Part shown: piece by piece, positions 2,982 to 18,658 of the stretch
Numbering within the stretch: position 1 is the stretch's first letter
How the letters are laid out: the number at the start of each line of letters is the position of its first letter
Source of the DNA: Calidithermus chliarophilus DSM 9957
Lineage (GTDB): Bacteria > Deinococcota > Deinococci > Deinococcales > Thermaceae
Assembly (NCBI RefSeq): GCF_000430045.1
Contig: NZ_KE387023.1
Span: forward strand, 2,168,167-2,232,166
Length of the DNA: 64,000 bases
Reading direction: 5' to 3'
The notes under the pieces: generated by a model
The model's input: the letters and a program-made list of their open reading frames with translations, nothing else
The model's database searches: none
Told to the model about the DNA's origin: nothing
Program-made: the position numbers and the translations under genes

Positions 2982-5900
2982 CTAGCGCTCCAGACCGCAC
3001 TGCGCCGGCCTGGGCAGCCCCTCGCGCCAGCCGCACCACTCGAGGTTGTGCGCGTTGCCCCGGAACTGCAGGGTGTCGATGGAGGTCAGCTCGAAGCGGA
3101 AGCGGCCCTGGGCCCCGGTGATGCTGGAATTCCAGGTCCCCTCGGCGACCATGCGGCCCGCCTCGTAGCGCACCGCGCCCGAAAGACTGCCCTCGCAGAA
3201 GCTGCCGCTGATGCGGTTCTCGACGTGCCTTAGCTGCATGGAGCAGTTGTCGCGCGCGGCGAAGTGGGTGGTCCACTCGCCCTGGTAGCCGCAGCCGTCG
3301 GGCAGGGGGCTGCCCTTGCGGGCGCCGCACCAGCGGCCGAGCTCGCCCGCCACGCCGTTGAAGCCCCGGCCGTCGGGGGTGAGGGTCCACTCGAAGCTGC
3401 GGCGGCTGGTGCCGGCGGTGTAGGTGCCGCGCAGGACGCCGGCCTCGAGCACGCCCTCGATGGTCCCCTTAGCCCCGTTTGCCACGTTGCGGTAGCTGCC
3501 CCGCACCCGCTCGCCCTCGCGCTCGAGCTCGATGCTGCCGAAGATGTTGTCGTACCAGGCCTCGCGGACGGGCGCGGGCCGCACCGTGACCTGGAGGCTC
3601 TGCTGGGCCTGGCCGCCCTCGCCCGCGGCCTGAAGCGTGTAGGTGGTGCTGGCCCTGGCGGTGACCACCCGGCTGCCCTGGGCCGGCAGGGGGTCGGGGC
3701 CGAGGGCCGGGATGCGCACGGTCCGGGCGTTGAGCACCTTCCAGCTCAGGGTGAGCTTCTGGCCCTGGGCGAGCTCGAGGGCCGAGGCCTGGAAGCGCTC
3801 GATCACCGGGGCGGGCTTGGCCCCCGCGGCGGGCGGGGCGGCGGCCTGCGGGGCGGCGGGGTTGCCGGCAGAGGGTGGCGGCGGGGCCGGGGGTGCGGCC
3901 ACGGCGGGTTCGACCACCTCGACCCGCACCTTACGCACGGCCTCCTCGCCCGCGGCGTTGCGCGCCCGCAGGGTGAACTCGGTGGTCTGCTCGGGGGCGG
4001 CGAGCTGCTGCGAGCCGCTGGGGCCTACCGTGCCCACGCCGTCGAGCTCGACGGAGGCGGCGTTGGCGGTGCGCCAGAAGAAGGTGAGGGTCGCGCCGTC
4101 GCCCCGGGTCACGCGCAGGGGCTTGATGCTGAAGCCCTCGATGCGCGGGGCGGGAACCCGCACCGTGACCCTGAGGTTGCGCTCGACCCGCTGCTCGCGG
4201 TTGACGGCGACCAGCCGGTAGGTGAGGGTGGCGTCGGGCTTGTCCTGGTAGCTGCCGCTGGCCTTCACGGTGCCGAGGGGCTCGAGCGTGACGCTCTGGG
4301 CCCCGCGCACCTTCCATCGCAGCAGCACCGGCTGGCCCTGGTACAGCTCGCGCGGGGTGGCCTCGAAGGCCTCGATCACCGGCGGGTCGGCCGGGCGTTC
4401 GCGCACGGCCACGGCGAGGCGCTCCTGGCTGTTGCGCCAGCGCCCGTAGGCCACCAGCGTGAGGTCGGCGGGGGCCTGGAAGCCCTTCTCGAGGGCGTAG
4501 CGCTCGCCCTGAGGGTCGAGGCTGATCCCCAGCGGGCGCAGCTCGAGCCGTTTGGCGCCGCTGACCCGGTAGTGCAGCGTGACCGGCTGTCCAGCGTAGG
4601 GCTGGGCGGGCTCGAGGGCGAAGCGGGTGATGCTCGGGGGCCGCGTCCACCACCACCCCAGCAGGCCGAGCAGCACGAGCAGCGCCGGCACGGTCCACGC
4701 CGGCAGCATGCCCCGGTGGTTGAACTGGGCACCCTCGCTGAGCGGCTTGGCCTCGGCGCCCTCGGGCAACTCCAGCGCCTCGGTGCGCACCTGGAAGCTG
4801 TAGGGGCGCACGGCGCCGAAGAGCCGCAGCGGAGCCCGCACCCGCAGCGGGACCTCGACGCTCTGGCCGGGCTCGAGCCGGAACTGCGGGGCCAGCTCGG
4901 GCCGTTCGGGGCGCGGGGCCGCGGGCGGTTTACGGGCGTTGGGGTCGTGGCCGCTGAACTCCTCGAGCTGCTGCTTGTACCACTGCGCCCGCCGCAGGAC
5001 GGGGCCCAGCGTGCGCTCCCACAGGCTGCGCAGGGCGTTTTCCAGCGGGCGCGTCGCCATGCGGAACCAGCGCAGCAGCAGGTTGCGTTGCCGCTCGTTG
5101 AGCTCGAGGGCCGGCGCGTCGCGGTCGTCGAAGCGGTAACCGAGCTGGTGCTGCTCGTCGCCGGCCAGGAGGCCGTAGCGGGCGGGCGCGTTGCCGGTGT
5201 TGACCAGCCGGACCCGGTACACAGCGGTGCGGCGGGCGGTGGCGACGGGGGGCTCGAGGCTCAGCCGGTGCTCGGCGAAGGGCAAGATCCTCCAACAGGC
5301 CGGGGCCGACCCCGCCTCGCGCGGGTTTTCTCGGGAGCGGGCCAGCACCTTGAGGCGGTACTCGCCCGCCCGGGCCTCGGGGCCGCGCGGCACCTGCACG
5401 GCGAGGGGCACGGTGGCCTGCTGCCCGGGGTTGAGCTGGACCTCGGGCCGTTCCAGCAGCCAGGCCTCGGGGACCCCCTCCACCTCCGGCCGGAAGTGGT
5501 CGACCAGGGTGCCCAGGTTGATCAGCTTGACCCGCAGGCGGGCCGGCTCGCCGGGGAGGAGGGTGAGCTCCTCGGCCTCGAGGCTCACCCCGATGCGCTG
5601 GCCGCCCGCCGACGTCGGGGGGTCGAGCCGCAGCCAGAAGGGGGCCAGGTACACCAGGCTGCGCCAGGGCCAGGGGCTGGGCGCCTGGGGCAGCAGTTGC
5701 CGGGGCGGGCCGCCGCCGTAGAGCCAGGTGCCGTTGGTGGAGCCTAAGTCGGTGACGTCGACGCGCTCGCCGTCCCAGTCCACCCGCAGGTGGTGGCGGG
5801 AAACCCGCTCGGACTCGAGCACCACGTCGTTGCCCTCCAACCGCCCGATCCGCAGGCCGCCGCGGCCGAGCTCGATCACGCGCAGGACCTGGCCCTGGGC

Positions 5901-6878
5901 GTCGCACAGGCTCAGGCGGGGGCTCGAGCTCGGGCCTTCGGGAGGGGTGACGCTGGGCGGGGTGACCTCGGCCGCCTCCGGGCTCAGGCGCAGGGTGGGG
6001 CGGGGCTGGGAGGGGACGCTGCGGTCGAGCAGCCCCTGCAGGGCGTCGCGCAGCTCGCCCATGTCGGTGAAGCGGTCGATGGGCTTCTTGGCCAAGGCCC
6101 GCAGGATGACGCGCTCGAGGGCCTCGGGCATCTGCGGCACGATCTGGCGGGGCGGGACCGGCTGGGCGTAGATGTGGCGGATGGCCGCGTCCCGCACGTC
6201 CTTGGCCTCGAAGGGCAGCAGCCCGGTGGCGACCTCGTAGAGCACCACCCCCAGCGCGTAGATGTCGCTGTGGACGGTGGGGGGTAGCCCCTGGAAGCGT
6301 TCGGGGGCCAGGTGGGTAGGGACGCCCTTGAAGTGCTCGAGGTCCTCCAGACCCCCGGGGCTCTCCAGCAACGCCATCCCGAAGTTGCCGACCTTGAGGG
6401 TGTAGTGCTCGAGCAGGCCCGTGCGCCACAGCAGCAGGTTGGCGGGCCGCACGTCGGCGTGGACGATCCCCCGCTTGTGGGCCTCCTCCAGCGCCGCCGC
6501 CGCGTCGCGCACGAGCTCGAGGCCCTGCTGCAGGGGAAGGCGCTCCCCCGCCTTGGCGTAGCGGTGCAGCAGCGTCTGCAGGCTGCCCTCCGGCGGGCGC
6601 TCGCTGGCGATGAACACGAAGTCCCCGCCCTCCCCGCAGTCGTAGGTCTCGACGACGTTGGGGTGCTTGAGCCCCAGCAGGGCCTGCCCGAGCTCCCGCA
6701 GGCGTTGTGCCTGCCGCGCCGTGCGCGGCATCAGCCGCACCAGCGCGGGGCGGCCGAGCTCGGTGTCCAGGGCCGCGAACGCTTTGCCCAGGTGGTCCTC
6801 GCCCAGCAAGTTTTGGAGCATGTACTTGCCGACGCGCTCCCCGACCCGACGGTCTGTTGTATTGCTTCCACTCTCCAC
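2982..6878 (-). CDS. Transmembrane FHA-domain pseudokinase with Ig-like repeats
   Basis: A 1298-residue modular protein. Residues about 15-290 have the Hanks-type Ser/Thr kinase fold: APE at 191-193 and SDIYALG with the helix-F Asp. The catalytic motifs are altered. The VAIK lysine is Arg48 (ALVRLM), HRDxKxxN reads HADVRPAN (Arg144 for Lys), and DFG is Asn-Phe-Gly (165-167). It is likely a pseudokinase. An intact FHA domain (about 335-390: IGR, SRHH, STNGT) binds phosphothreonine in known families. Next come NEW3/CARDB-like beta domains, one membrane helix near 724-744, four Ig-like repeats beginning xITRF/VIEAF/RIEGF/VIERF, and a Cys-rich beta C-terminus. The start is GTG at 6878 with AGGAG upstream. 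It lies 17 bases after the FHA-tail gene, probably in the same operon. A kinase-FHA pair controls type VI secretion in Proteobacteria; a scaffold role here is inference. Confidence 0.85.
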   Translation of the reverse strand: MESGSNTTDRRVGERVGKYMLQNLLGEDHLGKAFAALDTELGRPALVRLMPRTARQAQRLRELGQALLGLKHPNVVETYDCGEGGDFVFIASERPPEGSLQTLLHRYAKAGERLPLQQGLELVRDAAAALEEAHKRGIVHADVRPANLLLWRTGLLEHYTLKVGNFGMALLESPGGLEDLEHFKGVPTHLAPERFQGLPPTVHSDIYALGVVLYEVATGLLPFEAKDVRDAAIRHIYAQPVPPRQIVPQMPEALERVILRALAKKPIDRFTDMGELRDALQGLLDRSVPSQPRPTLRLSPEAAEVTPPSVTPPEGPSSSPRLSLCDAQGQVLRVIELGRGGLRIGRLEGNDVVLESERVSRHHLRVDWDGERVDVTDLGSTNGTWLYGGGPPRQLLPQAPSPWPWRSLVYLAPFWLRLDPPTSAGGQRIGVSLEAEELTLLPGEPARLRVKLINLGTLVDHFRPEVEGVPEAWLLERPEVQLNPGQQATVPLAVQVPRGPEARAGEYRLKVLARSRENPREAGSAPACWRILPFAEHRLSLEPPVATARRTAVYRVRLVNTGNAPARYGLLAGDEQHQLGYRFDDRDAPALELNERQRNLLLRWFRMATRPLENALRSLWERTLGPVLRRAQWYKQQLEEFSGHDPNARKPPAAPRPERPELAPQFRLEPGQSVEVPLRVRAPLRLFGAVRPYSFQVRTEALELPEGAEAKPLSEGAQFNHRGMLPAWTVPALLVLLGLLGWWWTRPPSITRFALEPAQPYAGQPVTLHYRVSGAKRLELRPLGISLDPQGERYALEKGFQAPADLTLVAYGRWRNSQERLAVAVRERPADPPVIEAFEATPRELYQGQPVLLRWKVRGAQSVTLEPLGTVKASGSYQDKPDATLTYRLVAVNREQRVERNLRVTVRVPAPRIEGFSIKPLRVTRGDGATLTFFWRTANAASVELDGVGTVGPSGSQQLAAPEQTTEFTLRARNAAGEEAVRKVRVEVVEPAVAAPPAPPPPSAGNPAAPQAAAPPAAGAKPAPVIERFQASALELAQGQKLTLSWKVLNARTVRIPALGPDPLPAQGSRVVTARASTTYTLQAAGEGGQAQQSLQVTVRPAPVREAWYDNIFGSIELEREGERVRGSYRNVANGAKGTIEGVLEAGVLRGTYTAGTSRRSFEWTLTPDGRGFNGVAGELGRWCGARKGSPLPDGCGYQGEWTTHFAARDNCSMQLRHVENRISGSFCEGSLSGAVRYEAGRMVAEGTWNSSITGAQGRFRFELTSIDTLQFRGNAHNLEWCGWREGLPRPAQCGLER

Positions 6879-6895: not shown

Positions 6896-7795
6896 TCAGA
6901 CCAACTCTAACACGTACCCGGCATGGGCGGGCTTATGGGTTTCGATCAGTTCGGTCAGCAACTCGGGGTCGAGCTCCCTGCCCGGGGGCACCTCGAGCCG
7001 AACCCGGAAGACGAAGGGTTGCTCCGGGAGCTCCTCGATGGATGGGCTGATCCCCGTGCACGTCTCGATCCAGCGGCTGAGCCCGTAGCGGGTGCCCCGC
7101 CACCGCAACAGGTCCATCCCCTCCGCCACCAGCCTGCGCCGCCGCTCCTCGGGCCAGCGTTCATCCAGCTCCAGCCCCAGCCAGCTCCCCAGCCAGTTCA
7201 CCATCGAAGCCGGGGCGGTGCGGGGGTCGAAGTACATGGGCAGGTGGTCCAGGCGCCACTCGAGCGGCTCCCAGATCCCCTCGAAGATCTGCAGGAAGCG
7301 CCCCAGGAAGTCCCCGTCGTGAAAAATGACGGGGAGGTACTGCAGGTAGCGGGACGGGGCCACCGACGGCAGCGGCACGGGATAGGTCGGCCGGGCCGGG
7401 GCCGGGGGGCGCTCCTCCACCGCCACCTCGACTTCGGGGACGGGGGCCAGGCTCACGGGCTGTGCTTCGGGCTCGACCGCGGGGGCGGCGGCGGGGGAGT
7501 AGGTCAGCACGAAGGGGCCGATCTGCACCGGGATGCCGGGGATCAGCGGGAACTCCTGGTGCGCCACCAGCCGCACGCCCCCCACGTAGGTCCCGTTGGT
7601 CGAGCCGAGGTCGATGATCACCGGCCCCTGCGCCGTCAGCCGGAGCTCGGCGTGATGTCGGCTGACGGGAGGGATGGGAAGCACCAGCCCGTTGTCGGGC
7701 ACCCGGCCGATGGTGAGGGAGTCGGCGGTGAGGTCCACCGTCTGGACGGTGGCCCCTTGAAGCTGGACGATGATTTGGCCTCTGGAGGTATCCAT
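6896..7795 (-). CDS. FHA domain fused to a phage tail protein I-like domain
   Basis: A 299-residue two-domain protein. Residues about 5-80 form an FHA domain with every key element: LTIGR, PPVSRHHAEL, DLGSTNGTYVGG. After a Pro/Glu-rich linker, residues about 140-265 match the phage tail protein I family (TIGR02242 type, related to P2 gpI). Landmarks are YLPVIFHDGDFLGRFLQIFE, DPRTAP, NWLGSWLGLELDERW and RGTRYGLSRWIE. Members of that family are baseplate-associated parts of contractile phage tails and extracellular injection systems. Fusing a phosphopeptide reader to a baseplate-type domain suggests phosphorylation-controlled assembly or anchoring. That is inference. No sheath, tube or spike gene is in this window. 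The next gene is the FHA pseudokinase. Confidence 0.87.
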   Translation of the reverse strand: MDTSRGQIIVQLQGATVQTVDLTADSLTIGRVPDNGLVLPIPPVSRHHAELRLTAQGPVIIDLGSTNGTYVGGVRLVAHQEFPLIPGIPVQIGPFVLTYSPAAAPAVEPEAQPVSLAPVPEVEVAVEERPPAPARPTYPVPLPSVAPSRYLQYLPVIFHDGDFLGRFLQIFEGIWEPLEWRLDHLPMYFDPRTAPASMVNWLGSWLGLELDERWPEERRRRLVAEGMDLLRWRGTRYGLSRWIETCTGISPSIEELPEQPFVFRVRLEVPPGRELDPELLTELIETHKPAHAGYVLELV

Positions 7796-7867: not shown

Positions 7868-8845
7868 CTAAGGCTCGGGCTCCTGCCTCACGTAGGTCTT
7901 GCCATCCCACCGGTAGACGGTCGCCAGGTCGCAAACCAGGTCGTGCACCCCTTGGCTCCTCGAGGCCAGCACGCCGATCCGCTTGCAGGCGCGATTGTCG
8001 TCGAAGGAGAGGCCGCTGGAGAACTGCACCCTCCAGGAAATGCGCCCCCACCTTGCCCAGAAGCTTCCGATAATCTGGTCGTCCGTGCCGTCGCCGTCGA
8101 GGTCGTACCGCAAACTTCGCTCCTCGGCGGCGGTGAGGTCCGAAAGCTCCTCGGACTTCATCTCGGCGAGGGCAAGAAGAGGTTTGAGCTCGCTTTTCTC
8201 CACCAGCACGGCGTTGCCGTCCTCGAGGACGTACCGCTCACGCACGTCGATAGGGTCATCGGTGTTGAACCCTTCGTTACGTACCTCGACCACGACGCTC
8301 CACCGGCCACGGTGCCGCTCGATCTTAGGTTCCTTGTAGGCATAGCCGAAAGGCTTGCTACGGCTGAAGCGTCCGTTCCCCCGGTGCGATACGAAGAAGT
8401 ATTCATCCAGGCAGCAGTTCCCGCCGCACCCCCCGTTCATACGAATTAGCACGTCGCTGTACCCGTCCTCGTCGAAGTCCTTGGGGTAGAGGTCGTAGAA
8501 GCAGATTTCCTCCTTCTCGTCAATAACGACGTAAGCCCGATCCCCCGACCGTGCGACCAGCCGGTAGAACGGCGGGCCGGGCGTCTCGGTGTTGGGGTCT
8601 ACCCGCTCATAGACCAGATCGTCCTTGGGCTTCGTTGGGTTGGGGGTTGTGTCCGGGGGGACTCCGAGGGAGCGCTCTGAAGCCTCGGGCAGTGGGGGAA
8701 CAAGATTTCCTGACGAGGTATAGCTGACCCGATAGAGCCCGAGACCCGCCAGTCCTAACCCGATGACAGCAGCTACAGCCCAAACCCGCTTTGTAAGCCG
8801 CGACTTGCGAGCTTTATCTGGTTTGTCTTTACCCATAAAGGTCAA
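7868..8845 (-). CDS. Membrane-anchored protein with Asp-rich calcium-type loops, function unknown
   Basis: A 325-residue protein with a basic N-terminus and one signal-anchor helix (VWAVAAVIGLGLAGLGLYRV), then an exported domain. It has two Asp-rich loops of the EF-hand/FG-GAP kind (DFDEDGYSD and DLDGDGTDD) and a Cys cluster (GGCGGNCCLDEYF). The start is either TTG at 8845, with GGAAGG at good spacing, or ATG at 8836. GC content is clearly lower than in the FHA genes, and it lies in the same leftward run as the peptidoglycan hydrolase. I do not recognise a family. Position and an anchored exported domain make an orphan immunity protein one possibility. The 269 bases upstream (8846-9114) hold no further gene that I can support. 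Confidence 0.7.
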   Translation of the reverse strand: MTFMGKDKPDKARKSRLTKRVWAVAAVIGLGLAGLGLYRVSYTSSGNLVPPLPEASERSLGVPPDTTPNPTKPKDDLVYERVDPNTETPGPPFYRLVARSGDRAYVVIDEKEEICFYDLYPKDFDEDGYSDVLIRMNGGCGGNCCLDEYFFVSHRGNGRFSRSKPFGYAYKEPKIERHRGRWSVVVEVRNEGFNTDDPIDVRERYVLEDGNAVLVEKSELKPLLALAEMKSEELSDLTAAEERSLRYDLDGDGTDDQIIGSFWARWGRISWRVQFSSGLSFDDNRACKRIGVLASRSQGVHDLVCDLATVYRWDGKTYVRQEPEP

Positions 8846-9114
8846 GCACCCTTCCTATTTGACATTTAAGGTCGCACAACCCTTACCTAACGAAGAGGTA
8901 TTCATGGGCAGCGTGCCTCGAACACGCCATCTTTCCATAAGAGCTGGCACCTTACGGAAGTTCTTCCTACTCGAGTAGGTTCTACTTTAATGGTGTACCC
9001 CTTAGGGGAAGGTAGATCGGGCGGGCCGCCATTGGTCTGTTCCCTTTATTCCCTTTTGCCCTGCTCCTCGCCGTGTCCTTGTTGCGCCGGGCGCTCTTCT
9101 TTTCCGAAATGGGG

Positions 9115-9765
9115 TCAATAATTCACCTTCTCGTATAGCTCTAGGTATGGAACAACCTCGAGCGCCCCCCGATCCGGGGCGAGCATCTCGTCAGGTATCT
9201 CCTGAACCCGGCGGTAGGGGTACTTGGAACTGGGCACGATGGCGCAATACAGGACGTACGGCTTGGGCTTGCTCGAGCCCGCGGGGGTGATGCTCCCCTT
9301 AGCCATCACGTGGAGATCGGTTTTGCGGCTCAAGTAACCAAAGCACCCTGAGTTGAAGTCATCACCCATGTTGGGCGCATTTCGGTACTGTTTTCCAATC
9401 ATCAGTGCTACGAGGTCAATTGCGAGTTGAACATCATAAAATCCTAACCCGTTATCTAGAAATCTTTCCTTGAACTGGATTTGAAAGCCGATGATTCTTC
9501 CATTCTTATCCCAGAGGATGCCAATAATGGTCTCTTGCCCATCACGCCTACGTGAGTACGGATCGATGGGATAAACTACGGTGTAGTCCGCCGTTGTCCC
9601 ACCTATCAGGTCCAGTTTTCCACGGGAGACAAGCTTGCATGAGAATTTCTTGCAAAAGCTCGTGCCTTCAATAGTCGCCTTTGTGCCGTAGATCGGGCCT
9701 TCGGCGCTGACCGACAAACCCAGGCTTAGGAAAAGTATCAAGCCGAGCAATCCCAACCTTCGCAT
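9115..9765 (-). CDS. Secreted protein of unknown function
   Basis: A 216-residue protein with a clear signal peptide (RLGLLGLILFLSLGLSVSAEG, cleavage expected after SVSA). The mature part has four or more cysteines (FCKKFSCK, SGCFGYL, YCAIV), suitable for disulfides, and no family motif that I know. Codon use is lower in GC than in the flanking housekeeping genes. It lies in the leftward series between two other exported orphans and downstream of the peptidoglycan hydrolase. A periplasmic guard function is possible but unproven. Confidence 0.65.
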   Translation of the reverse strand: MRRLGLLGLILFLSLGLSVSAEGPIYGTKATIEGTSFCKKFSCKLVSRGKLDLIGGTTADYTVVYPIDPYSRRRDGQETIIGILWDKNGRIIGFQIQFKERFLDNGLGFYDVQLAIDLVALMIGKQYRNAPNMGDDFNSGCFGYLSRKTDLHVMAKGSITPAGSSKPKPYVLYCAIVPSSKYPYRRVQEIPDEMLAPDRGALEVVPYLELYEKVNY

Positions 9766-9902
9766 TAGCGATCACTACCCCTTACGCAACCAGCCGAGAA
9801 CCTGCTCTTTACCCGAGGTGATCCGCCGCCGTCCAGGCGCCTCCTCGAGCGGGGATCTCTCCGTCTCATTCTTGAGCCGTAAGGGTGTCGCGGGGGCACG
9901 CC

Positions 9903-10697
9903 TCACCGGGCGGGGAACTTCTTGAGCTGTACCCGCTCGGTCCCGATGGGCTTGAAGGTGTTCAGGGGTGGGTGATCCGTTTTATCGACACAGGGCGCGG
10001 TGTAGCTCTTGAGGACCACGGCGTTTTTCTCGAAGGTTAGCACCTTCGAGACCACGCGGGCCGTCCGGATTTTCGGGTAGCTAGGGCACTCTGAGACGAG
10101 CACCTCGGGCAGCTCCGCGTACTTCACTTCAACCAACAAACCGAATAGCTTGCCCGAACCGCGGCTGTAGTTGACGATGTCCGCGTCCAGCCAGAACACC
10201 CCGCCCTCCTGGGTCAGCCTCACGCGCTCGTGCACCCGTAATATCTCGTCCCGGCCGTCCGCGTTGAGGTCCCCCACGTTGGCGATGTAGTGGCCTGCGG
10301 TCGTATAGTGAATGGCGCTAACCCCGACGGTCGCACCTGGCGGCGAGTCAACGAGATCAAAGTTACTGATCAAGATGGCTTTACTATAAGTCGCCTGATA
10401 GGGCGATACCTCATCACCGAAGGAGGGCTTGTCCTGGTTGTACAGCAGGATCTTCTCCTTGACCTTGGGCTGGGTGAAGGACCCTTCGATGTAACCGAGC
10501 AGCCATTCTGATGCCCTGGGGTAGTAGCCATCCCTCCTGAGTATCTCCTCGGCCGCGCGCTGCTCCTTGGAGCCGGACGGGGGCGGTATGAAGGGCCAGC
10601 TCCTGAAGTCGACCTGTGAGAGAATAAAGGGCTTGGTCATGCCCAAAAGGCCTGTTAAGCTGATGACCCAGAGAGCTAAAATTAGGGCTTTTCTCAC
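9903..10697 (-). CDS. Exported partner protein coupled to the peptidoglycan hydrolase (candidate immunity protein)
   Basis: A 264-residue protein with a signal peptide or anchor (KALILALWVISLTGLLGM) and an exported domain. That domain carries one Asp-rich calcium-type loop (VGDLNADGRDEIL) and late cysteines. Its ATG overlaps the stop of the upstream peptidoglycan hydrolase by four bases, so the two are translationally coupled. An exported protein made right after a cell-wall hydrolase is the usual arrangement of a toxin and its periplasmic immunity protein. No sequence family confirms this. GC is low, like the hydrolase C-terminal half. Confidence 0.7.
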   Translation of the reverse strand: MRKALILALWVISLTGLLGMTKPFILSQVDFRSWPFIPPPSGSKEQRAAEEILRRDGYYPRASEWLLGYIEGSFTQPKVKEKILLYNQDKPSFGDEVSPYQATYSKAILISNFDLVDSPPGATVGVSAIHYTTAGHYIANVGDLNADGRDEILRVHERVRLTQEGGVFWLDADIVNYSRGSGKLFGLLVEVKYAELPEVLVSECPSYPKIRTARVVSKVLTFEKNAVVLKSYTAPCVDKTDHPPLNTFKPIGTERVQLKKFPAR

Positions 10698-12943
10698 TGA
10701 CTGGCCTCTCCCTCGCGTTCAAGATCCTCTGGCGAGAAACGAACAAAACCATCCGGCGGGCCGCCCTTGGCCTTGTCCTCCAGTGCTTCGATGGTCTGTA
10801 ACCCTCTCGCGTCCTTTTTACCACTCTTGTTCCAATCAATGACATTATTACTGGCTACTTTTCCGCCACCGATGTAGATTCCGACGTGCCCTCCTTCTTT
10901 TTGTTGACCGTTGCTCTCGGTGTAGAATGACCCTTTAAGCCAGAAGATAATGTCTCCAGGTTGAAGCTTAGAGGCGTCAAACTCATGCCAGTATGGCGAG
11001 GTTCTGAAAGCAAGGCCCGCGTCCTTAGCAGTTTCTCTGCGGTATGGCCTATATAGCTTAGCGTAGTCCGTCTTTTCCAGCACCTCCCTGACCCATTTTA
11101 GGCAGTGATACCCATGCTTCTCGGTGTCATCGCCGCTCAGGCTCTCTAGCGCCGCTTGGAGGATTTCGTGGTTGCCTACAGGCAGGAAGTATTGAAGTAC
11201 GTGGTTGTTGTTGTGAATCTTCCTCACCGCTTCCGACTTCGAGATCGCTCCATCCTTATTGAGGTCCAAGCCCTGGTTTTCGGCATACTTGTCAGGATTT
11301 GCCACCTTTGTATATAGCGCCTCATCGTTGGGAGCGAAGGGGGCGATGATGCTTTTGTAGATTTGCGCGAGGTCAGCCCCTGGCGGAAGTTTGTGGGATT
11401 TGAAGTGCAAGACCACGTAGCGAATCTGCTCCTGAACCGACATGCGCATCAAATTGTCTCGGCTGAGCTTGCTTACCTGCCAGCCATACTTCTGGATGTC
11501 TGCCTTAATTTCCTTGCCTAGAGTGCGAGTAGATGCCCAGGTAGTCAGCCATTCGCGCATTCGCTGGATACTATCAGATGTGAATTGGATCAGCCCTACT
11601 GCACTGCCGCCGCCTAGATTGGGTTGGCTGGGTGAGAAGGAGTTCTTGCTTTCGAACGCTATACAGGCGGCCAGATCGTTGGGATTGACCCCTAGCTCAC
11701 CGGCCGCCCATAGGATGGCCTCGGCCACCTCGGGGGTGAAGGTTTTGGGGATGCCTCTAGCCCCGATGTTTGCTTTCCATGCATCTACTATCCAACTCGA
11801 GGTCACTGAAGCCCGAGGCTGGGGGATACGGTTGGGTGCCCACACAGCCGTAAGTCGGTAGATGGTGTCCTTTCCCTCCTCATCCTTGCCCAGCCACTCC
11901 CCCTCGAGGGTCTTGGGCTTGCCCCCTGGGCTGAAGCTGAGACGCCCATTGCGGAATTGCCGGGTCTGTCCCTGGAACTTCCCCGTGTCGTATTTCGCGG
12001 TGAACTCCACCGTGCCGTCGGCCTCGAGCGTGCCGAAGAAGTGCCCATTCCCGCTGGGGGTGCTGAAGTTGCCCAGCAAGGTGCCGTCGGCCTTTTTGAA
12101 CACTTCGCTGAAGTGGATGGTGACGTTGGCGTTCCCCGCGCTCAGCTTGCCCTCGAAACTGTGGCGCTCGCTCCAAGCCTTGCCGGCGGAGGCTTGTGGG
12201 GGTTGTGGGGCCTGTTGGCCTGGTTGTGGTTGGGGCGGTGGGGAAGGCTGGGGTTGGCGCGGTTGCGGGGCGGGTGGGGCGGTTTCTTCCTTCGGTTGCT
12301 GGGGCTGGGCTTGGGGTTGGGCCTGTGGGGCGGTCGTAGCCGTTCCTGCCGTTTCCTCTCCCTCTTGCCCCTGAGCCCAGCTTGGCAGGCTCCGGAAAGG
12401 CTCCATGGGGGTGAGGGGCTCGAGCCGCAGCCCCTCCAGCACCACGTCGTCGGTTTCCCCGTTCTCCTCGCTGTCCCGTTCGCCCCGCACCCGGCGGAAC
12501 TCGCCGACGGAGAGGGTGTTGTCGGGGTTGTAGCGCCCGTGGAACTTGGCGGAGTTGGCGGTGCCCTCGAGGTGGAAACTGCCGTCTTGGAGCAACTTGC
12601 CCCTGAGCGGCCACTGCCGGGCCGTGCCCTGGCTTTGGGAGGTGCGTACCCAGTACAGGCCCCACAGCGTGCCGTCGGCCAGGCGGTAGAGGGTGAGGAA
12701 GAGTTCGAAGCCGCGGAGGGAGGCTTTGTAGGTGCGGGTCCAGGGTTCGCCGCCTTTCCTGGCCTGCTGGTGCCGGTTCTGCCAGTACGCCACCTCCCGC
12801 TCGGCTCGCCCCGGGTCTGGGGGACGGGCGGGGAGGGGGGCGGGTTCCGGGGCAGCATCGGGAATGGCGGTGGGTTCAGGCTTGATCTGGGCAAAAGGGA
12901 GAGAGTGCGCAGGTTCTTCCTCGAGCCACGACCGTGAAGACAT
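10694..12943 (-). CDS. Two-domain peptidoglycan hydrolase, candidate injected effector
   Basis: About 749 residues from the ATG at 12943. I prefer this start because TATACT lies six bases before it, a leaderless promoter. Residues 10-24 hold an EEEPAHSLPFAQIKPEP motif shared with the lipase at 14443-16017. Two related beta domains (about 52-170 and 245-360) are joined by a Pro/Gln-rich linker. A lysozyme/transglycosylase-like domain follows (Glu431 in AFESK, SAVGLIQF), then an EF-hand (DLNKDGAISKSE) and a C-terminal NlpC/P60- or CHAP-like cysteine peptidase (Cys614 in YHCLKWV, His686 in GGHVGIYIG). There is no signal peptide, so export needs another route, such as an injection device. DNA for the N-terminal 360 residues is high GC and the catalytic half is low GC. 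Confidence 0.82.
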   Translation of the reverse strand: MSSRSWLEEEPAHSLPFAQIKPEPTAIPDAAPEPAPLPARPPDPGRAEREVAYWQNRHQQARKGGEPWTRTYKASLRGFELFLTLYRLADGTLWGLYWVRTSQSQGTARQWPLRGKLLQDGSFHLEGTANSAKFHGRYNPDNTLSVGEFRRVRGERDSEENGETDDVVLEGLRLEPLTPMEPFRSLPSWAQGQEGEETAGTATTAPQAQPQAQPQQPKEETAPPAPQPRQPQPSPPPQPQPGQQAPQPPQASAGKAWSERHSFEGKLSAGNANVTIHFSEVFKKADGTLLGNFSTPSGNGHFFGTLEADGTVEFTAKYDTGKFQGQTRQFRNGRLSFSPGGKPKTLEGEWLGKDEEGKDTIYRLTAVWAPNRIPQPRASVTSSWIVDAWKANIGARGIPKTFTPEVAEAILWAAGELGVNPNDLAACIAFESKNSFSPSQPNLGGGSAVGLIQFTSDSIQRMREWLTTWASTRTLGKEIKADIQKYGWQVSKLSRDNLMRMSVQEQIRYVVLHFKSHKLPPGADLAQIYKSIIAPFAPNDEALYTKVANPDKYAENQGLDLNKDGAISKSEAVRKIHNNNHVLQYFLPVGNHEILQAALESLSGDDTEKHGYHCLKWVREVLEKTDYAKLYRPYRRETAKDAGLAFRTSPYWHEFDASKLQPGDIIFWLKGSFYTESNGQQKEGGHVGIYIGGGKVASNNVIDWNKSGKKDARGLQTIEALEDKAKGGPPDGFVRFSPEDLEREGEASQ

Positions 12944-12949
12944 GGAACC

Positions 12950-12955
12950 AGTATA
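12950..12955 (-). promoter_or_regulatory. -10 box of a probable leaderless promoter for the peptidoglycan hydrolase
   Basis: On the leftward strand TATACT is followed by six bases and then ATG (12943-12941). An upstream -35 is poor (TGGCAA, 17-base spacer). The box lies in the 73-base divergent gap facing the truncated AAA+ gene at 13017. Confidence 0.5.
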
Positions 12956-13016
12956 ATCACATGCCTGGATGTTTGCCAGGAAATAAGGGTTGGGTTTTAT
13001 GTAAGGTGGGTGCTGC

Positions 13017-13469
13017 GTGAACGGGCTACAAGACCAGGGAATTCGACCACTGTCCGGCGGCATAGGGCTAAGGCTACTGGTAGCGCTCATCAAGGCTGAG
13101 GCCAGCCGGCCTTTCGGGGAACGCGACCTCGAGTCCCGGCTCCCCCCCTTGAGCCAAACGCTGGCGGAAGACACCGCCCTGGCCCGCCTTTGCGAGGCGC
13201 TGGGCCTGGGGGCTTTCGAGCGGAACGTCCTTCTGCTGTGCGCGGGGGCCGAGCTGGAGCCCGACTTCCTGCCGGCGTGTGCCCAGGCTTGTGGGCTGGC
13301 GGAGTCGCGCTACCCGAGTTTCGGCCTGGCCTTCGCGCTATTCGGGGATGGCATTGTCCACGCACAGGCGATGACGCCCTCGGCGCCCCTGCGGCACTGG
13401 GGGCTCATCGAGATCCATCTTCATAGCCCACCCGGGCGCACGTCTATTTCGAGTTTGGTATCGTGGTAA
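13017..13469 (+). pseudogene. Truncated 5' fragment of an AAA+ ATPase gene
   Basis: The first 134 codons (to base 13418) correspond to the N-terminal region of the full AAA+ protein at 16118-18100. Shared landmarks are VLLLCAGAELEPD (VLLLCAGLAIEPD in the intact copy) and PSAPLRHWGLIEIH (PSAPLRRWGLIEIH). The start is GTG at 13017 with AAGGTGG seven bases upstream. After 13418 the frame runs into foreign low-GC sequence and stops at 13469, with no Walker motifs. Joined to base 16511 onward it would restore a normal AAA+ gene. The fragment is therefore the displaced 5' end of the ancestral gene, split by the insert at 13419-16510. It is high GC, like the rest of the ancestral gene. Confidence 0.85.
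13377..13418 (+). repeat. Left 42-bp direct repeat bracketing the cargo cassette
   Basis: This stretch encodes PSAPLRHWGLIEIH and matches 16469-16510 at 40 of 42 bases. Sequence to its left is high-GC ancestral AAA+ gene, and sequence to its right is low-GC insert. It marks the left recombination boundary. Confidence 0.85.
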
Positions 13470-13933: not shown

Positions 13934-14446
13934 TTATGGATCGTAGCCCAGCGAAAAACTCACGACATCCCCCTCAAGGGTAATGCCCAACCTACTATAG
14001 GATTCTTGCTCGAGTACCCGAGGGCCAAAATCAATAAGCAGATACCATCCAGGATGGTTTACTAGGCGATAACTGCGTCCTATATAGCCGTAGTTTTCAC
14101 GCCACCCGGTTTTGGGCGAAAACTCCCTGCGTAGCACGCGGTCTAGAGCTTTCTGAAGTTCCTGGAGGCGCTGGTACTTGTCCGGCTCACCAGAAATCAG
14201 CTGAAAACATAGAAAATCACCACCGTCCTCTCTGTTGCGCCTCACAGAGCTCTCCATTACCTCTGGGCACCTGATTTCCTTAAGGGTAACGACTTGCTGG
14301 AGGGATGTGATCAGATTATCGTAGAGTTGTTTTGGGCTGAGTGTCCCGTTCATTTTGTTGATGCCCCCTTGCACATAAGCAATGCCGACTGCTGTTAGCA
14401 GTAGGGTTGTTACTATTAGCGCGGGCCTCGTCATGGTCACCTTCAT
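13934..14446 (-). CDS. Membrane-anchored partner of the class 3 lipase (candidate immunity protein)
   Basis: About 170 residues from ATG 14446. A longer ATG at 14470 exists, but 14446 overlaps the lipase stop as ATGA, the coupled arrangement. The N-terminus is one hydrophobic segment (ALIVTTLLLTAVGIAYV), so the rest lies outside the cytoplasm. Two conserved cysteines (IRCPEV, FLCFQL) are also kept in the decayed paralogue next door. I recognise no named family. Coupling to a phospholipase-like enzyme and duplication within the cassette fit an immunity protein, as with Tle-Tli pairs of type VI secretion. That is inference. Confidence 0.75.
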   Translation of the reverse strand: MKVTMTRPALIVTTLLLTAVGIAYVQGGINKMNGTLSPKQLYDNLITSLQQVVTLKEIRCPEVMESSVRRNREDGGDFLCFQLISGEPDKYQRLQELQKALDRVLRREFSPKTGWRENYGYIGRSYRLVNHPGWYLLIDFGPRVLEQESYSRLGITLEGDVVSFSLGYDP

Positions 14447-16017
14447 TGACCTGGATGCCATGAGTACCAAATTTGCTCAATACGCCGTTTGAGATCATCT
14501 TTGATTTCTCTTGATATAGCCATTTGTTCAATGCGGCTTCCTAACTTTAGTGCCTCCTGTAAACTTTTTGCCTGCCTCACCCACGCCTCTACTTGCCGGT
14601 AGGCTTTATCGTACTCCTCTACACTGAGCGCGGCGCTGCCCAGAATGTAGGCTGTCGCCTGCTTAGCGTTGTTCCTGGTTTCGCGAAAGATAACCCCCTC
14701 GCCGAAAAGTTCTCCTATTAGCTCGAGAGGTAAGGTCACGATATCGCCGGCAAAATCGCCAGCGGCCTCCCAACCTGAGATGGCCTTATACCTGCCGCTC
14801 TTTACCCCCTCTTTGAATCGCTCGATGTATTGCCCCGCCATTTGCCGTAGTTGCTCGGCTATGACACGCTCCGGGTCATTGTTCTCAACATCGGTACTGT
14901 ATGTGTTTACGTACTGGACGGGGTTATCCCCGGTTAGCCCTTTGTTGGCAATGGCTTTTTGCTCAGGGGTGAAAGGCTTATCAGGTGAGGACTCGATGGC
15001 TGTTGAGAGGATGGGAGTGAGGTGGGTCTGGCCAGTAAAGGCCGTCATAAGAGCCCCAATGGTTAGCTCATCGGTAAGCTCTGTCCCAACGAGTTTTCGC
15101 CAAACTGCTTTAGCGGCTTCGTCTGCCAAATTATCTAAGAATGGACCAATGTCAAACTCGATGGTTCTAGGACCAAGCTTGACGTAAACAGGAGTCTTGG
15201 TTCGCTGATTTGGAAACTTAAACCGATGTACCTCGCCGGGAGTAAACGCTTGGCCTGCGTGGGGCACGAAGTCTAGATTCATCCGATAGTGATCCGAGGT
15301 GATTTGCTCACCCGGAGACTTGCCTTTGTTATACGCTTCGATCTTTGCCACCATCTCTTTAGGGATTCCCGGGGCCTGAAACGTAGCAACGTGACCTACG
15401 CTTTGCGGCCAAGTACATGCTGTCCACTGGGCCAGTGCTCCGCCTAGCGAGTGTCCGCAAAGCCAAACCTTGCCCTTTTGTTGAGCATAGTCCAGGTGAG
15501 TCCTGATGAGGTCTTTGTTCTCGTGGAATTGCCCATACCCTACGCCTCGAGGGTCAGCATCAGTAAACCAATCCATTTGGCCTTCCAGAACCTTGAACTC
15601 CCCGCCCTGTGTGCCTCGGAAAGCGACGACGGGATAAGGGTATTCGGGTTTACTAGGAAGGAATACTTGTAACTGCATGCCTAAGCGGCCATATGTGGTG
15701 CGCTGTGGCCTATATCCAAATTGCCGAACGACTTCATATTTGGGATTTTCCTGTGCTGAAGGTACGTAATCCTCATAAGCCAGTTTGGCCATTTGCTCCA
15801 GGAGTGCATCGTAAGTTAATTGAGGTGAAGGAATCCTAGCAAAAGGGCTAGGCTTTTCCTCGGCCAAACCTTCGCGATAGTCCGGCTTCATTGTGGGCGA
15901 CTGCTTCTGAGCCGAGATAAGAGGTAGGGAGTACTCGTACTCTTGGCTGTCTTGGTTAGCTACTCCCTTCGCCAAGAATTCCGGATATCTGGAAGCAACC
16001 TCGTAATCAAGCGCCAT
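14443..16017 (-). CDS. Class 3 (alpha/beta hydrolase) lipase, candidate injected effector
   Basis: A 524-residue protein. The lipase core has VVAFRGTQGG (oxyanion region) and the nucleophile elbow GHSLGG (Ser190). Candidate Asp and His follow in DFVPHAGQAF and beyond. The C-terminal 200 residues are helical and lack a known motif. Residues about 50-68 read AEEKPSPFARIPSPQ, close to the EEEPAHSLPFAQIKPEP motif near the start of the peptidoglycan hydrolase. There is no signal peptide. A GGAGGAG Shine-Dalgarno precedes ATG 16017. It is encoded in the low-GC cassette, coupled to the anchored partner downstream and divergent from the AAA+ gene. Substrate is unknown; phospholipids are plausible. 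Confidence 0.85.
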   Translation of the reverse strand: MALDYEVASRYPEFLAKGVANQDSQEYEYSLPLISAQKQSPTMKPDYREGLAEEKPSPFARIPSPQLTYDALLEQMAKLAYEDYVPSAQENPKYEVVRQFGYRPQRTTYGRLGMQLQVFLPSKPEYPYPVVAFRGTQGGEFKVLEGQMDWFTDADPRGVGYGQFHENKDLIRTHLDYAQQKGKVWLCGHSLGGALAQWTACTWPQSVGHVATFQAPGIPKEMVAKIEAYNKGKSPGEQITSDHYRMNLDFVPHAGQAFTPGEVHRFKFPNQRTKTPVYVKLGPRTIEFDIGPFLDNLADEAAKAVWRKLVGTELTDELTIGALMTAFTGQTHLTPILSTAIESSPDKPFTPEQKAIANKGLTGDNPVQYVNTYSTDVENNDPERVIAEQLRQMAGQYIERFKEGVKSGRYKAISGWEAAGDFAGDIVTLPLELIGELFGEGVIFRETRNNAKQATAYILGSAALSVEEYDKAYRQVEAWVRQAKSLQEALKLGSRIEQMAISREIKDDLKRRIEQIWYSWHPGQ

Positions 16018-16117: not shown

Positions 16118-18100
16118 GTGATAAAGCTGGTAAGTAATTCAACTTCTGCTTCCTACATGTGCTTAAAAACGCGTCTTGACCTCATACGTCAGAAGCTATT
16201 ACGCAGGGCCGAGAGGAGTATTGATTACTCGTGGGAGGTCTCACTCTCAGTCCAAGATCCTCTTGATATAGCTGATCGACTTCCGCAATTGGTTAAGCAA
16301 TTCGCCTTGTCTGATTACGAGGCGGAGGTTCTGCTACTGTGCGCAGGGTTGGCAATCGAGCCGGATTTGACTGCCCTTTTAGCAGAGCTGACTGGTCAGC
16401 AATTGCCAACGTTTAGCCTCGCTTCTGCTTATCTCGGAGATCAGGCAGAGGACTATTTGTCCCTATGTCCCTCCGCGCCCCTGCGGCGCTGGGGGCTCAT
16501 CGAGATCCATCCCCGCCCCGACCTCCCGCTCACCGCGCAGCCCATCCGCCTCTCGGAGCCGGTGTTGCACTTCCTGCTCGGGGTGCAGGGCGACAACCCC
16601 GCCGACCTCGACCCCGAGCTCGCGGGGACCTTCGCGCTCTCGGCCGCTCCCGCCCTCGTTCCCTCGCAGCAGGAGCAGGCCGACCGGATCTGCTCGGCGT
16701 GGGAGGGTGGGGCCGTTCCCGTGCAGCTTTTAGGCGACCCCCAGAGCGTGCGGGCGATCGCGGCCAGCGCCTGCTCCCGGCTGGGGTTGCGGGCGTTCGG
16801 GCTTCCGGCGGAGCGGCTGCTCGAGCGCGACCCCGAGGACCTGGCCCGGCGGCTGGGGCGGGAGGCGCGCCTGCGGGGGGCGGCGTGGCTGCTCGAGGCC
16901 GGCTACCGCCCCGAGCCCCCCGCGCAGGCCCGGCTCGGGGAACTGCTCGAGCGGCTGGTGGCGCTTGAGACGCCGGTGCTGCTCTCGGCGCGCGAACGCC
17001 TGGCGCTGCCGGGGGTGCGCTGGACCCTGGAGGTGGACAAACCCACCCCCTCCGAGCAGGCCGCGCTGTGGCGGGAATGGCTCGTGGGGGAGCTCAGCGT
17101 CCCGGAGAACGTTCTGAACGAAGCCCTGGAGCGGGTGGTGGCGCAGTTCGACCTCGAGACCGCCGCCATCGCGGAGGCGGCACAGCAGGCCTTGCTCGAG
17201 CTGCACTACCGCCTGCGGCAGGGGGCGCGGTTGCGGCCTGAAGACCTGCTGGGGGCCCTGTGGGCGGCGGCGCGGGGCCAGAGCCACGGCCGGCTGGACC
17301 GGGTGGCGGCGGTGCGGCGCATGGCGGCGCGGGCGCGGCGGGAGGACCTGGTGCTTCCCGGGGCGGTGCAGGCCACCTTGAGCGAGATCGCGGCCCACGT
17401 GCGCCACCGGCACCTGGTCTACGACCGCCAGGGCTTCCGTAGCGGTGAGCGGGGGCGCGGCGTGGCGGTGCTGTTCAGCGGCCCCAGCGGCACGGGCAAG
17501 ACCACCGCAGCCGAGGCGCTGGCGCGGGAGCTGGACCTGGAGCTCTACCGCGTGGACCTCTCGCTCTTGGTGAGCAAGTACATCGGCGAGACGGAGAAAA
17601 ACCTGCGGGAGGTCTTCGACGCGGCGGAAGACGGGGGAGCGGTGCTGCTGTTCGACGAGGCCGACGCCGTCTTCGGCAAGCGCTCGGACGTGCAGGACAG
17701 CCACGACCGCTACGCCAACCTCGAGGTGAGCTACCTGCTGCAGCGCATGGAGCAGTACCGCGGCCTCGCCATCCTCACCACCAACCTGGAGAGCTCCATT
17801 GACGAGGCCTTCGTGCGCCGCCTGCGCTTCATCGTGCGCTTCGAGCGGCCCAAGCCGCCCGAGCGGGCCGAGATCTGGCGGCGGGTCATCCCGGCCGAGT
17901 TCCACGCGGGCCTGGACTTCGAGCGCCTGAGCCTCCTCGAGCTCACCGGCGGGCACATCGCCAACGTGGCCCTGCACGCGGCCTTCAAGGCGGCCGCCGA
18001 GGGGAGGCCTTTGGGGATGCGCCACCTGCGGGAGGCGGCCAGCGAGGAGATGGCGAAGCTCAAGCGGTTGTGGCCGCGGGAGCTCGAGGACTGGGGCTGA
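16118..18100 (+). CDS. AAA+ ATPase of the contractile injection system type (Afp15/Pvc15-like)
   Basis: A 660-residue ATPase with a single C-terminal AAA+ module: Walker A GPSGTGKTT near 455, YIGETEKNL, Walker B VLLFDEAD near 510, sensor LTTNLESSIDEAF, and arginine finger FVRRLRF. ATPases with this long N-terminal region and CDC48-like module are regular members of extracellular contractile injection system clusters (Afp15, Pvc15). The first 131 codons come from the low-GC cassette and the rest is high GC. The fusion point is the 42-bp repeat encoding PSAPLRRWGLIEIH. The start is uncertain. GTG 16118 has GGAAGG immediately upstream, and ATG 16157 is the alternative. It is divergent from the lipase. 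The N-terminus may recognise the cognate cargo (inference). Confidence 0.85.
   Translation: MIKLVSNSTSASYMCLKTRLDLIRQKLLRRAERSIDYSWEVSLSVQDPLDIADRLPQLVKQFALSDYEAEVLLLCAGLAIEPDLTALLAELTGQQLPTFSLASAYLGDQAEDYLSLCPSAPLRRWGLIEIHPRPDLPLTAQPIRLSEPVLHFLLGVQGDNPADLDPELAGTFALSAAPALVPSQQEQADRICSAWEGGAVPVQLLGDPQSVRAIAASACSRLGLRAFGLPAERLLERDPEDLARRLGREARLRGAAWLLEAGYRPEPPAQARLGELLERLVALETPVLLSARERLALPGVRWTLEVDKPTPSEQAALWREWLVGELSVPENVLNEALERVVAQFDLETAAIAEAAQQALLELHYRLRQGARLRPEDLLGALWAAARGQSHGRLDRVAAVRRMAARARREDLVLPGAVQATLSEIAAHVRHRHLVYDRQGFRSGERGRGVAVLFSGPSGTGKTTAAEALARELDLELYRVDLSLLVSKYIGETEKNLREVFDAAEDGGAVLLFDEADAVFGKRSDVQDSHDRYANLEVSYLLQRMEQYRGLAILTTNLESSIDEAFVRRLRFIVRFERPKPPERAEIWRRVIPAEFHAGLDFERLSLLELTGGHIANVALHAAFKAAAEGRPLGMRHLREAASEEMAKLKRLWPRELEDWG
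16469..16510 (+). repeat. Right 42-bp direct repeat bracketing the cargo cassette
   Basis: It matches 13377-13418 at 40 of 42 bases (differences at the sixth base and in CAC versus CGC). Low-GC coding sequence precedes it and high-GC AAA+ coding sequence follows. It marks the right recombination boundary. Confidence 0.85.
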
Positions 18101-18154
18101 GGTCCGGCTGGGCCCCCTACCCAACTATGGCCCCTTCAGGTCATGATAATTCCA

Positions 18155-18658
18155 ATGAGGCGATCCGATTTCCTAACCCTAACCGCATCCCTGACACTGG
18201 TTCTGGCCGCTTGCTTCCCCGCCCAGGCCCCGGCTCCGGCCCCTCAGCCCCCGCAGCCCGCCCCGGCACCCGCCGCAGAGCCCAAAGCGCTGGGGGAGCC
18301 CAAGGTGGTGGGGCTGCGCCCTTTCGGCCTGCTGGCCGACAACCGCCCCAGCACGGTGGCCGGGCTCGCCACCCTCACCAACTACTCCAACGGGCAGAGC
18401 GTGCTCGAGATCTCCGTCGCCAACCTGCCCCCCGAGACCAGCCACGCCGCCAACCTCCGGCTGGGCACCTGCAGCAACCTCGGGCCAATCGCCGTGGCGC
18501 TGGGGTCGGTCTTCGCGGACGCTCGAGGGGCGGGCAAGAGCAGCACCCGCCTCCCCACGACGCAAATCCCGACCGAGCGGGTGACGGTGGTGGTCTACCA
18601 GCGCGACGTCACCGACCCCAAGGGCGTGGGGGGGGCCATCGCTTGTGGGGAGCTTTAG
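18155..18658 (+). CDS. Lipoprotein with a CHRD-like domain
   Basis: About 167 residues. A lipoprotein signal ends at the lipobox LAAC, followed by a Pro/Ala-rich spacer. The mature domain (SVLEISVANLPPETSHAANLRLGTC, then TRLPTTQI and VVVYQRD) resembles CHRD or superoxide-dismutase-like beta domains of exported proteins; this is a weak match. I start at ATG 18155, giving the compact signal MRRSDFLTLTASL. ATG 18143 adds four residues and cannot be excluded. It begins 54 bases after the AAA+ gene, on the same strand. Confidence 0.75.
   Translation: MRRSDFLTLTASLTLVLAACFPAQAPAPAPQPPQPAPAPAAEPKALGEPKVVGLRPFGLLADNRPSTVAGLATLTNYSNGQSVLEISVANLPPETSHAANLRLGTCSNLGPIAVALGSVFADARGAGKSSTRLPTTQIPTERVTVVVYQRDVTDPKGVGGAIACGEL

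Follow-up and report, generated by a model that had tools for sequence, protein, structure and literature searches.

Does the open reading frame at 6896-7795 of a 64,000-nucleotide stretch of the Calidithermus chliarophilus DSM 9957 genome (hereafter the window) encode a forkhead-associated (FHA) domain fused to a baseplate-type tail protein, and if so, which contractile device would it belong to and what would the FHA domain do there? A preliminary description, made from the sequence of the window, had proposed such a fusion, framed it by analogy with type VI secretion, and suggested that it puts phospho-control on the device itself.

Results

An FHA domain and a tail domain share one ORF

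The N-terminal domain of the ORF product matched the Pfam FHA profile with an E-value of 2.6e-14 (53.8 bits vs a cut-off of 20.7), and all four FHA core residues (Table 1) were present, as had been proposed. The top PDB matches of this half were GarA, OdhI, and TB39.8, the last of which we take to be FhaA. Judging from its residues, the domain is predicted to bind phosphothreonine. The assignment of the second half to the tail protein I family was also confirmed: residues 151-255 matched TIGR02242 (E 8.9e-30, 103.4 bits vs a curated cut-off of 51.85), and residues 185-290 matched Pfam Tail_P2_I (E 9.1e-15, 55.2 bits vs a cut-off of 20.6). The top PDB match of the tail half by profile was 9gtp_E (E 4.7e-28) from the baseplate of the cytoplasmic contractile injection system (CIS) of Streptomyces coelicolor, and 9gtp was also the top Foldseek match (E 1.5e-9) of an AlphaFold2 model of the fusion. 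In this model (28 sequences, mean pLDDT 81.5), both domains were well predicted and separated by a disordered linker; the relative placement of the FHA and tail domains is unreliable (pTM 0.45).

The type VI framing did not survive. The fusion scored 33.7 bits against TIGR03354 (TagH), below the cut-off of 120.25, and it instead corresponds to the Cis12 wedge subunit of a IId-like CIS. With the Streptomyces CIS12_fam equivalog profile (NF053768), only the tail region of the fusion aligned (8e-21), and its 74.4 bits are below the whole-protein cut-off of 860. We grade the identification of ORF 6896-7795 as a Cis12/Afp12/gpI-type wedge subunit as strong.

The link between the two domains is covalent, because both lie in a single 299-aa ORF, and this arrangement is kept in relatives. 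An assembly artefact can be discounted, since the protein shares 82% identity with its counterpart in Calidithermus roseus and the same architecture was seen again in ~30 loci. Comparison of the C. roseus and window genes gave a dN/dS of 0.145, which indicates purifying selection. A prophage origin of the fusion was rejected, as the phage collection gave partial single-domain matches and no record covering most of the query.

Table 1. Positions of the features discussed (window coordinates, except for the CIS cluster, which is given in contig coordinates).
Feature	Position	Strand	Remarks
FHA-Tail_P2_I fusion, Cis12/gpI-type baseplate wedge subunit	6896..7795	(-)	299 aa, ATG start
FHA domain, aa 28-93	7517..7714	(-)	Pfam match; R31, S45, H48, N67 intact
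Pro/Glu-rich low-confidence linker, ~aa 101-150	7346..7495	(-)	low pLDDT over most of its length
TIGR02242/Tail_P2_I domain, aa 151-290	6926..7345	(-)	profile matches; top PDB match 9gtp
Transmembrane FHA-(pseudo)kinase, 1298 aa	2982..6878	(-)	17 bp downstream of the FHA-tail gene
Kinase-like domain, aa 15-288	6015..6836	(-)	ALVRL, HADVRPAN, NFG; predicted inactive
Second FHA domain, kinase protein aa 343-388	5715..5852	(-)	domain match
Predicted single transmembrane segment, ~aa 723-745	4644..4712	(-)	hydropathy
CIS cluster	same contig, 2106939 to ~2122527		~53-65 kb from the fusion gene

A CIS cluster without a wedge subunit lies on the same contig

The genome was searched for sheath, tube, spike, and LysM-type baseplate genes, as the preliminary description had advised, and all were found in one cluster. 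It encodes gp25, a baseplate J/TIGR02243 protein (482 bits), Pvc16_N, a sheath, two tube proteins, an eCIS_core protein, CIS_tube plus LysM, a VgrG-related spike, and a second eCIS_core protein with a DNA/RNA non-specific endonuclease domain. The window spans contig positions 2168167-2232166, so that ~53 kb separate the fusion gene from the nearer edge of the cluster and ~63 kb separate it from the sheath gene. No Tail_P2_I was found within the cluster (2106939-~2122527). Across the genome, TIGR02242 gave one match, the fusion ORF, which was also the sole Tail_P2_I match over the cut-off; the next ones were weak (E 0.01 and worse). Because the cluster has no Tail_P2_I and the genome has a single confident match, the fusion ORF would most simply be the missing Cis12 of this cluster. 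Two options had been left for the device, namely that it is encoded elsewhere or that the module is standalone. The first proved right, and the second is ruled out by a CIS cluster on the same contig that has no wedge subunit of its own. The contractile genes and the tail profile match of the C-terminal half are thus both in place; the lack of either had been named in advance as grounds for giving up the proposal.

The FHA-tail and kinase genes of C. roseus also lie beside rplA-rplK-nusG, with the baseplate J gene on a different contig. The split between the cluster and the FHA-tail gene therefore probably predates the divergence of the two Calidithermus species. Transposase-like ORFs are found at the end of the main cluster (2123200-2123940 of the same contig) and are possibly linked to its split from the pair.

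A second CIS-like locus (1017503-1037299), of another type, encodes proteins resembling TIGR02243, sheath, and tube proteins, and related TIGR02243 pieces are found in C. roseus. This locus (1.017-1.037 Mb) was rejected as the partner of the fusion, as the best Tail_P2_I match in its vicinity is weak (E 0.01) and the FHA-tails of relatives lie in clusters like the one at 2.107-2.123 Mb. Sheath-like, LysM-like, and baseplate genes were also observed in a prophage or Mu-like region on another contig (C9, 15370-48035).

Within the window, an 826-aa protein that weakly matches NlpC/P60 and phage lysozyme and has a cell-wall-hydrolase-like C-terminal part is encoded upstream of the FHA-tail gene on the same strand (10694-13174, (-)); in C. 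roseus, its gene is not adjacent to the FHA-tail gene. Further away, 14443-16017 (-) encodes a 524-aa lipase/alpha-beta hydrolase-like protein, and small predicted membrane or secreted proteins are encoded between this gene and the FHA-tail gene (7868-10697 and 13934-14470). The lipase-like gene and these small genes form a possible accessory or toxin island.

A membrane FHA-(pseudo)kinase adjoins the fusion gene

The fusion gene pairs with the adjacent gene for a 1298-aa transmembrane FHA-kinase, which the preliminary description had not tied in. This protein is laid out as a kinase-like domain, an FHA domain, Ig-like NEW3/FixG_C, one predicted transmembrane segment, and a long C-terminal part that is again Ig-like. 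This layout is shared by the kinase proteins of relatives, in which a stronger hydrophobic segment lies near residue 676-760. From this layout, the N-terminal part is probably cytosolic and the Ig-like C-terminal part outside the membrane.

In the window kinase, the beta-3 Lys is replaced with Arg and DFG with NFG, and the Asp of HRD is kept (HAD), so that it lacks residues scored as those of an active kinase. Judged by these motifs, it looks catalytically dead. The gene is under purifying selection (dN/dS 0.33, C. roseus vs window). The simple scheme in which the adjacent kinase phosphorylates and the FHA domain reads is thus not accepted as it stands for the window, because two key residues are absent. 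With the beta-3 Lys and the DFG Asp missing, phosphorylation would need another kinase. Nine other kinase matches were found in the window genome, and at least five of these keep the main catalytic residues. Direct control of the device by phosphorylation, as proposed earlier, is plausible.

FHA-bearing tails and their kinase partners occur in two phyla

The search for the FHA plus TIGR02242 architecture and its range, likewise advised beforehand, gave ~30 loci in Deinococcota and Chloroflexota. TIGR02242 was present in 70/400 sampled Chloroflexota genomes and in 6/111 Deinococcota genomes. Other phyla were covered by a pattern scan together with plasmid and phage collections. All 17 FHA-tail loci from the pattern scan of genome contigs belong to Deinococcota and Chloroflexota, and the range may be wider than these two phyla. 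Among the plasmid matches listed, those from Streptomyces and cyanobacteria covered the tail half only. Homologues were found in Chloroflexota, Deinococcales MAGs, and Deinococcus megaplasmids, mostly within CIS clusters. Tail, kinase, spike, and sheath genes lie together in one cluster in several relatives, and five Deinococcus megaplasmids carry a CIS cluster in which the tail gene is followed by a gene for a kinase-like protein of ~1600 aa.

A kinase gene on the same strand, at most 10 kb downstream, was found at 25/27 testable loci with FHA-bearing tails vs 0/38 with FHA-less tails (Fisher p ~5e-16, a value that ignores kinship among the loci). In a tree of the tail domain, the FHA label required four changes, and 28 FHA-bearing tails formed one strongly supported group.

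Several loci depart from the simple pair. One FHA-tail gene is followed by three tandem FHA-kinase genes in the Roseiflexus-type loci L144, L149, and L155. In three Chloroflexota loci, an FHA-containing protein of 1134-1721 aa is encoded between the FHA-tail and the kinase (L139:5085-9668, L141:8236-13401, L163:6297-9701); no kinase domain was detected in these proteins. On the D. grandis plasmid (L218, ~17570-18576), the FHA and tail halves are shifted in frame relative to each other in the deposited sequence, through either a sequencing error or a real change. At L115, L117, and L124, FHA-less tails adjoin separate FHA proteins that have no kinase domain, with NEW3/FixG_C in L115 and L117. 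These FHA-less sister loci hint that control by an FHA protein in trans may be older than the fusion or may have existed alongside it.

Intact and degenerate pockets

The states of the two partners were scored strictly from motifs (kinase Lys/Asp/Asp vs FHA R, S, H, N). The kinases of Roseiflexus, Thermogemmatispora, and related Chloroflexota have the Lys, the HRD Asp, and the DFG Asp, and the FHA domains paired with them have R, S, H, and N. Both the kinase and the FHA pocket are degraded in Chloroflexaceae-type loci and in Deinococcus. The loci from Deinococcales MAGs have lost the FHA Asn in 5/5 cases and the kinase motifs in 3/5. Since the pockets of these three groups are degenerate (S replaced with A, or N lost), phospho-reading is not universal.

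The two states agreed in 26/31 loci (13 with both intact, 13 with neither). Three of the five discordant loci had the kinase residues only, and the two with the FHA residues only were the window and C. roseus, where an intact FHA domain accompanies K to R and DFG to NFG in the kinase. Wherever a testable locus had a fully canonical HRD/DFG kinase, all four canonical FHA residues were kept. Analysis by independent pairs gave no significance for co-degeneration of FHA and kinase, with 3-4 changes on the tail-domain tree. Co-degeneration was therefore not accepted as statistical proof, as the independent events are too few, and is no more than suggestive.

Discussion

The fusion, the membership of its tail subunit in a CIS, and its tight pairing with a membrane (pseudo)kinase were established directly. 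CIS particles of Calidithermus chliarophilus, D. grandis, Roseiflexus, and others are already in the literature, and the published tree grouped thermophilic Deinococcota with Chloroflexota CISs inside subtype IId (PMC12998442). The CIS of the window genome resembles this published subtype-IId cytoplasmic type, our own tree being one of the tail domain only. The published clade includes Calidithermus, Deinococcus, Roseiflexus, and Thermogemmatispora and has the same cluster of sheath, tube, baseplate, and VgrG-type spike genes, but the paper is silent on FHA domains and kinases (PMC12998442). A term search of this clade paper and of other openly licensed CIS papers found no mention of FHA. Combining CIS with FHA or forkhead-associated in the openly licensed literature returned only T6SS and unrelated papers, and kinase terms in the CIS papers checked, where present, concern other matters. 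In public annotation, the tail proteins go under the names 'phage tail protein' or 'FHA domain-containing protein', and their partners under 'FHA domain-containing serine/threonine-protein kinase'. The CIS of these organisms was already known; the FHA-wedge fusion and the paired membrane kinase appear to be new.

The nearest solved structure for the tail half is that of the Streptomyces coelicolor CIS (9gtp), in which the wedge consists of two Cis11 and one Cis12; firing there requires CisA, a single-pass membrane protein (PMC12237407). That paper mentions no FHA domain or kinase, and the matched 9gtp chain covers the tail half of the profile only (PMC12237407). CisA is a different protein and not a kinase, in contrast to the membrane (pseudo)kinase described here. 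Close cisA homologues are absent in Roseiflexus, where the mechanism may differ (PMC12998442). In the thylakoid CIS of Anabaena, an extra domain on Cis12 is the membrane connector that anchors the CIS; the membrane in that case is the thylakoid, and the paper mentions no FHA domain or kinase (PMC8894136). In type VI secretion, a Ser/Thr kinase and an FHA protein (PpkA/Fha, TagH) control a contractile device at the baseplate/membrane stage (PMC10433429), but FHA is a separate protein there and a covalent part of a non-T6SS CIS wedge subunit here. A small FHA protein, FhaA, is also recruited through its FHA domain to the phosphorylated transmembrane pseudokinase MviN in mycobacteria (PMC12599244). 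MviN/FhaA and GarA/OdhI regulate the cell wall or metabolism, and no injection device is involved.

We propose, at about even chances of being right, that the baseplate FHA domain docks onto the membrane (pseudo)kinase and thereby primes or triggers firing of the cytoplasmic CIS. The FHA domain would extend the Cis12-type wedge subunit at its N-terminus via the flexible linker, and if each wedge holds a single Cis12, as it does in Streptomyces, every baseplate would display six projecting FHA domains. Particles would be assembled free in the cytoplasm. An envelope or stress signal reaching the membrane protein would lead to its phosphorylation on Thr. Intact kinases (Roseiflexus, Thermogemmatispora) would phosphorylate themselves, and a pseudokinase (Calidithermus) would depend on another Ser/Thr kinase. 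Binding of the phosphorylated membrane protein by the FHA domains of the baseplate would then dock the syringe on the inner membrane, and docking would prime or trigger firing. The FHA domain and the membrane kinase would thus stand in functionally for CisA of Streptomyces, and the FHA extension would be a counterpart of the Cis12 extension by which the Anabaena CIS is anchored. In a fuller version, which we hold tentatively and as somewhat short of an even chance, FHA capture of the phosphorylated (pseudo)kinase is a phosphorylation-gated, membrane-tethered trigger; kinase signalling would set docking and firing, possibly killing the producer, and a phosphorylation-free tether would be left after joint decay of pocket and kinase. 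In published tomograms of C. chliarophilus, D. aquatilis, and Roseiflexus, the particles of this clade lie in the cytoplasm without attachment (PMC12998442), and any docking would thus need to be transient. It also counts against this mechanism that the FHA-tail/kinase pair of Calidithermus lies outside the main CIS cluster, that the window kinase lacks two catalytic residues, and that the FHA pocket is degenerate in the three groups named above.

A firing tether may not be involved at all. The wedge FHA domain could bind phosphorylated or partner CIS proteins in the particle or the cytosolic FHA part of the kinase, as a checkpoint of assembly or stability that would control how the baseplate is put together, in the manner of Fha/PpkA in type VI secretion. 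Phospho-control in the T6SS does work on baseplate assembly, through TssK and Fha (PMC10433429), and some sister clusters have separate kinase-less FHA proteins next to FHA-less tails. We nevertheless consider such a checkpoint rather unlikely, because the transmembrane segment and the large predicted non-cytosolic part of the conserved partner point to a sensor or an anchor, and because Anabaena employs the same subunit, Cis12, as a membrane anchor (PMC8894136).

Docking could also be independent of phosphorylation, with the FHA domain as a plain interaction module and the pseudokinase bound constitutively or via a conformational signal. This would fit the several clades that keep both proteins with the FHA Ser and Asn replaced and the kinase degenerate, as well as the purifying selection on the Calidithermus pseudokinase (dN/dS ~0.33). 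It is harder to reconcile with the FHA residues, 4/4 of which are kept in Calidithermus and alongside every testable canonical HRD/DFG kinase, and we regard it as distinctly unlikely. A chance or relic fusion, in which the shuffled-in domain has no CIS role and the kinase pairing is hitch-hiking, would agree with the decayed FHA pocket of some lineages and with the position of the window genome's gene outside the main cluster, but is highly improbable given ~30 loci in two phyla, kinase pairing at 25/27 loci vs 0/38 FHA-less ones, 82% identity and a dN/dS of 0.145 between two Calidithermus species, and the fact that the fusion is the sole confident Tail_P2_I available to the CIS cluster.

As to how a cytoplasmic CIS finds a membrane and which signal makes it fire, the FHA-bearing baseplate subunit with its kinase partner offers a concrete candidate for the trigger. 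Docking of the FHA domain onto a phosphorylated membrane (pseudo)kinase is open to experiment, since cultured strains known to make particles are available. If true, it would link Ser/Thr phosphorylation directly to the contractile machine.
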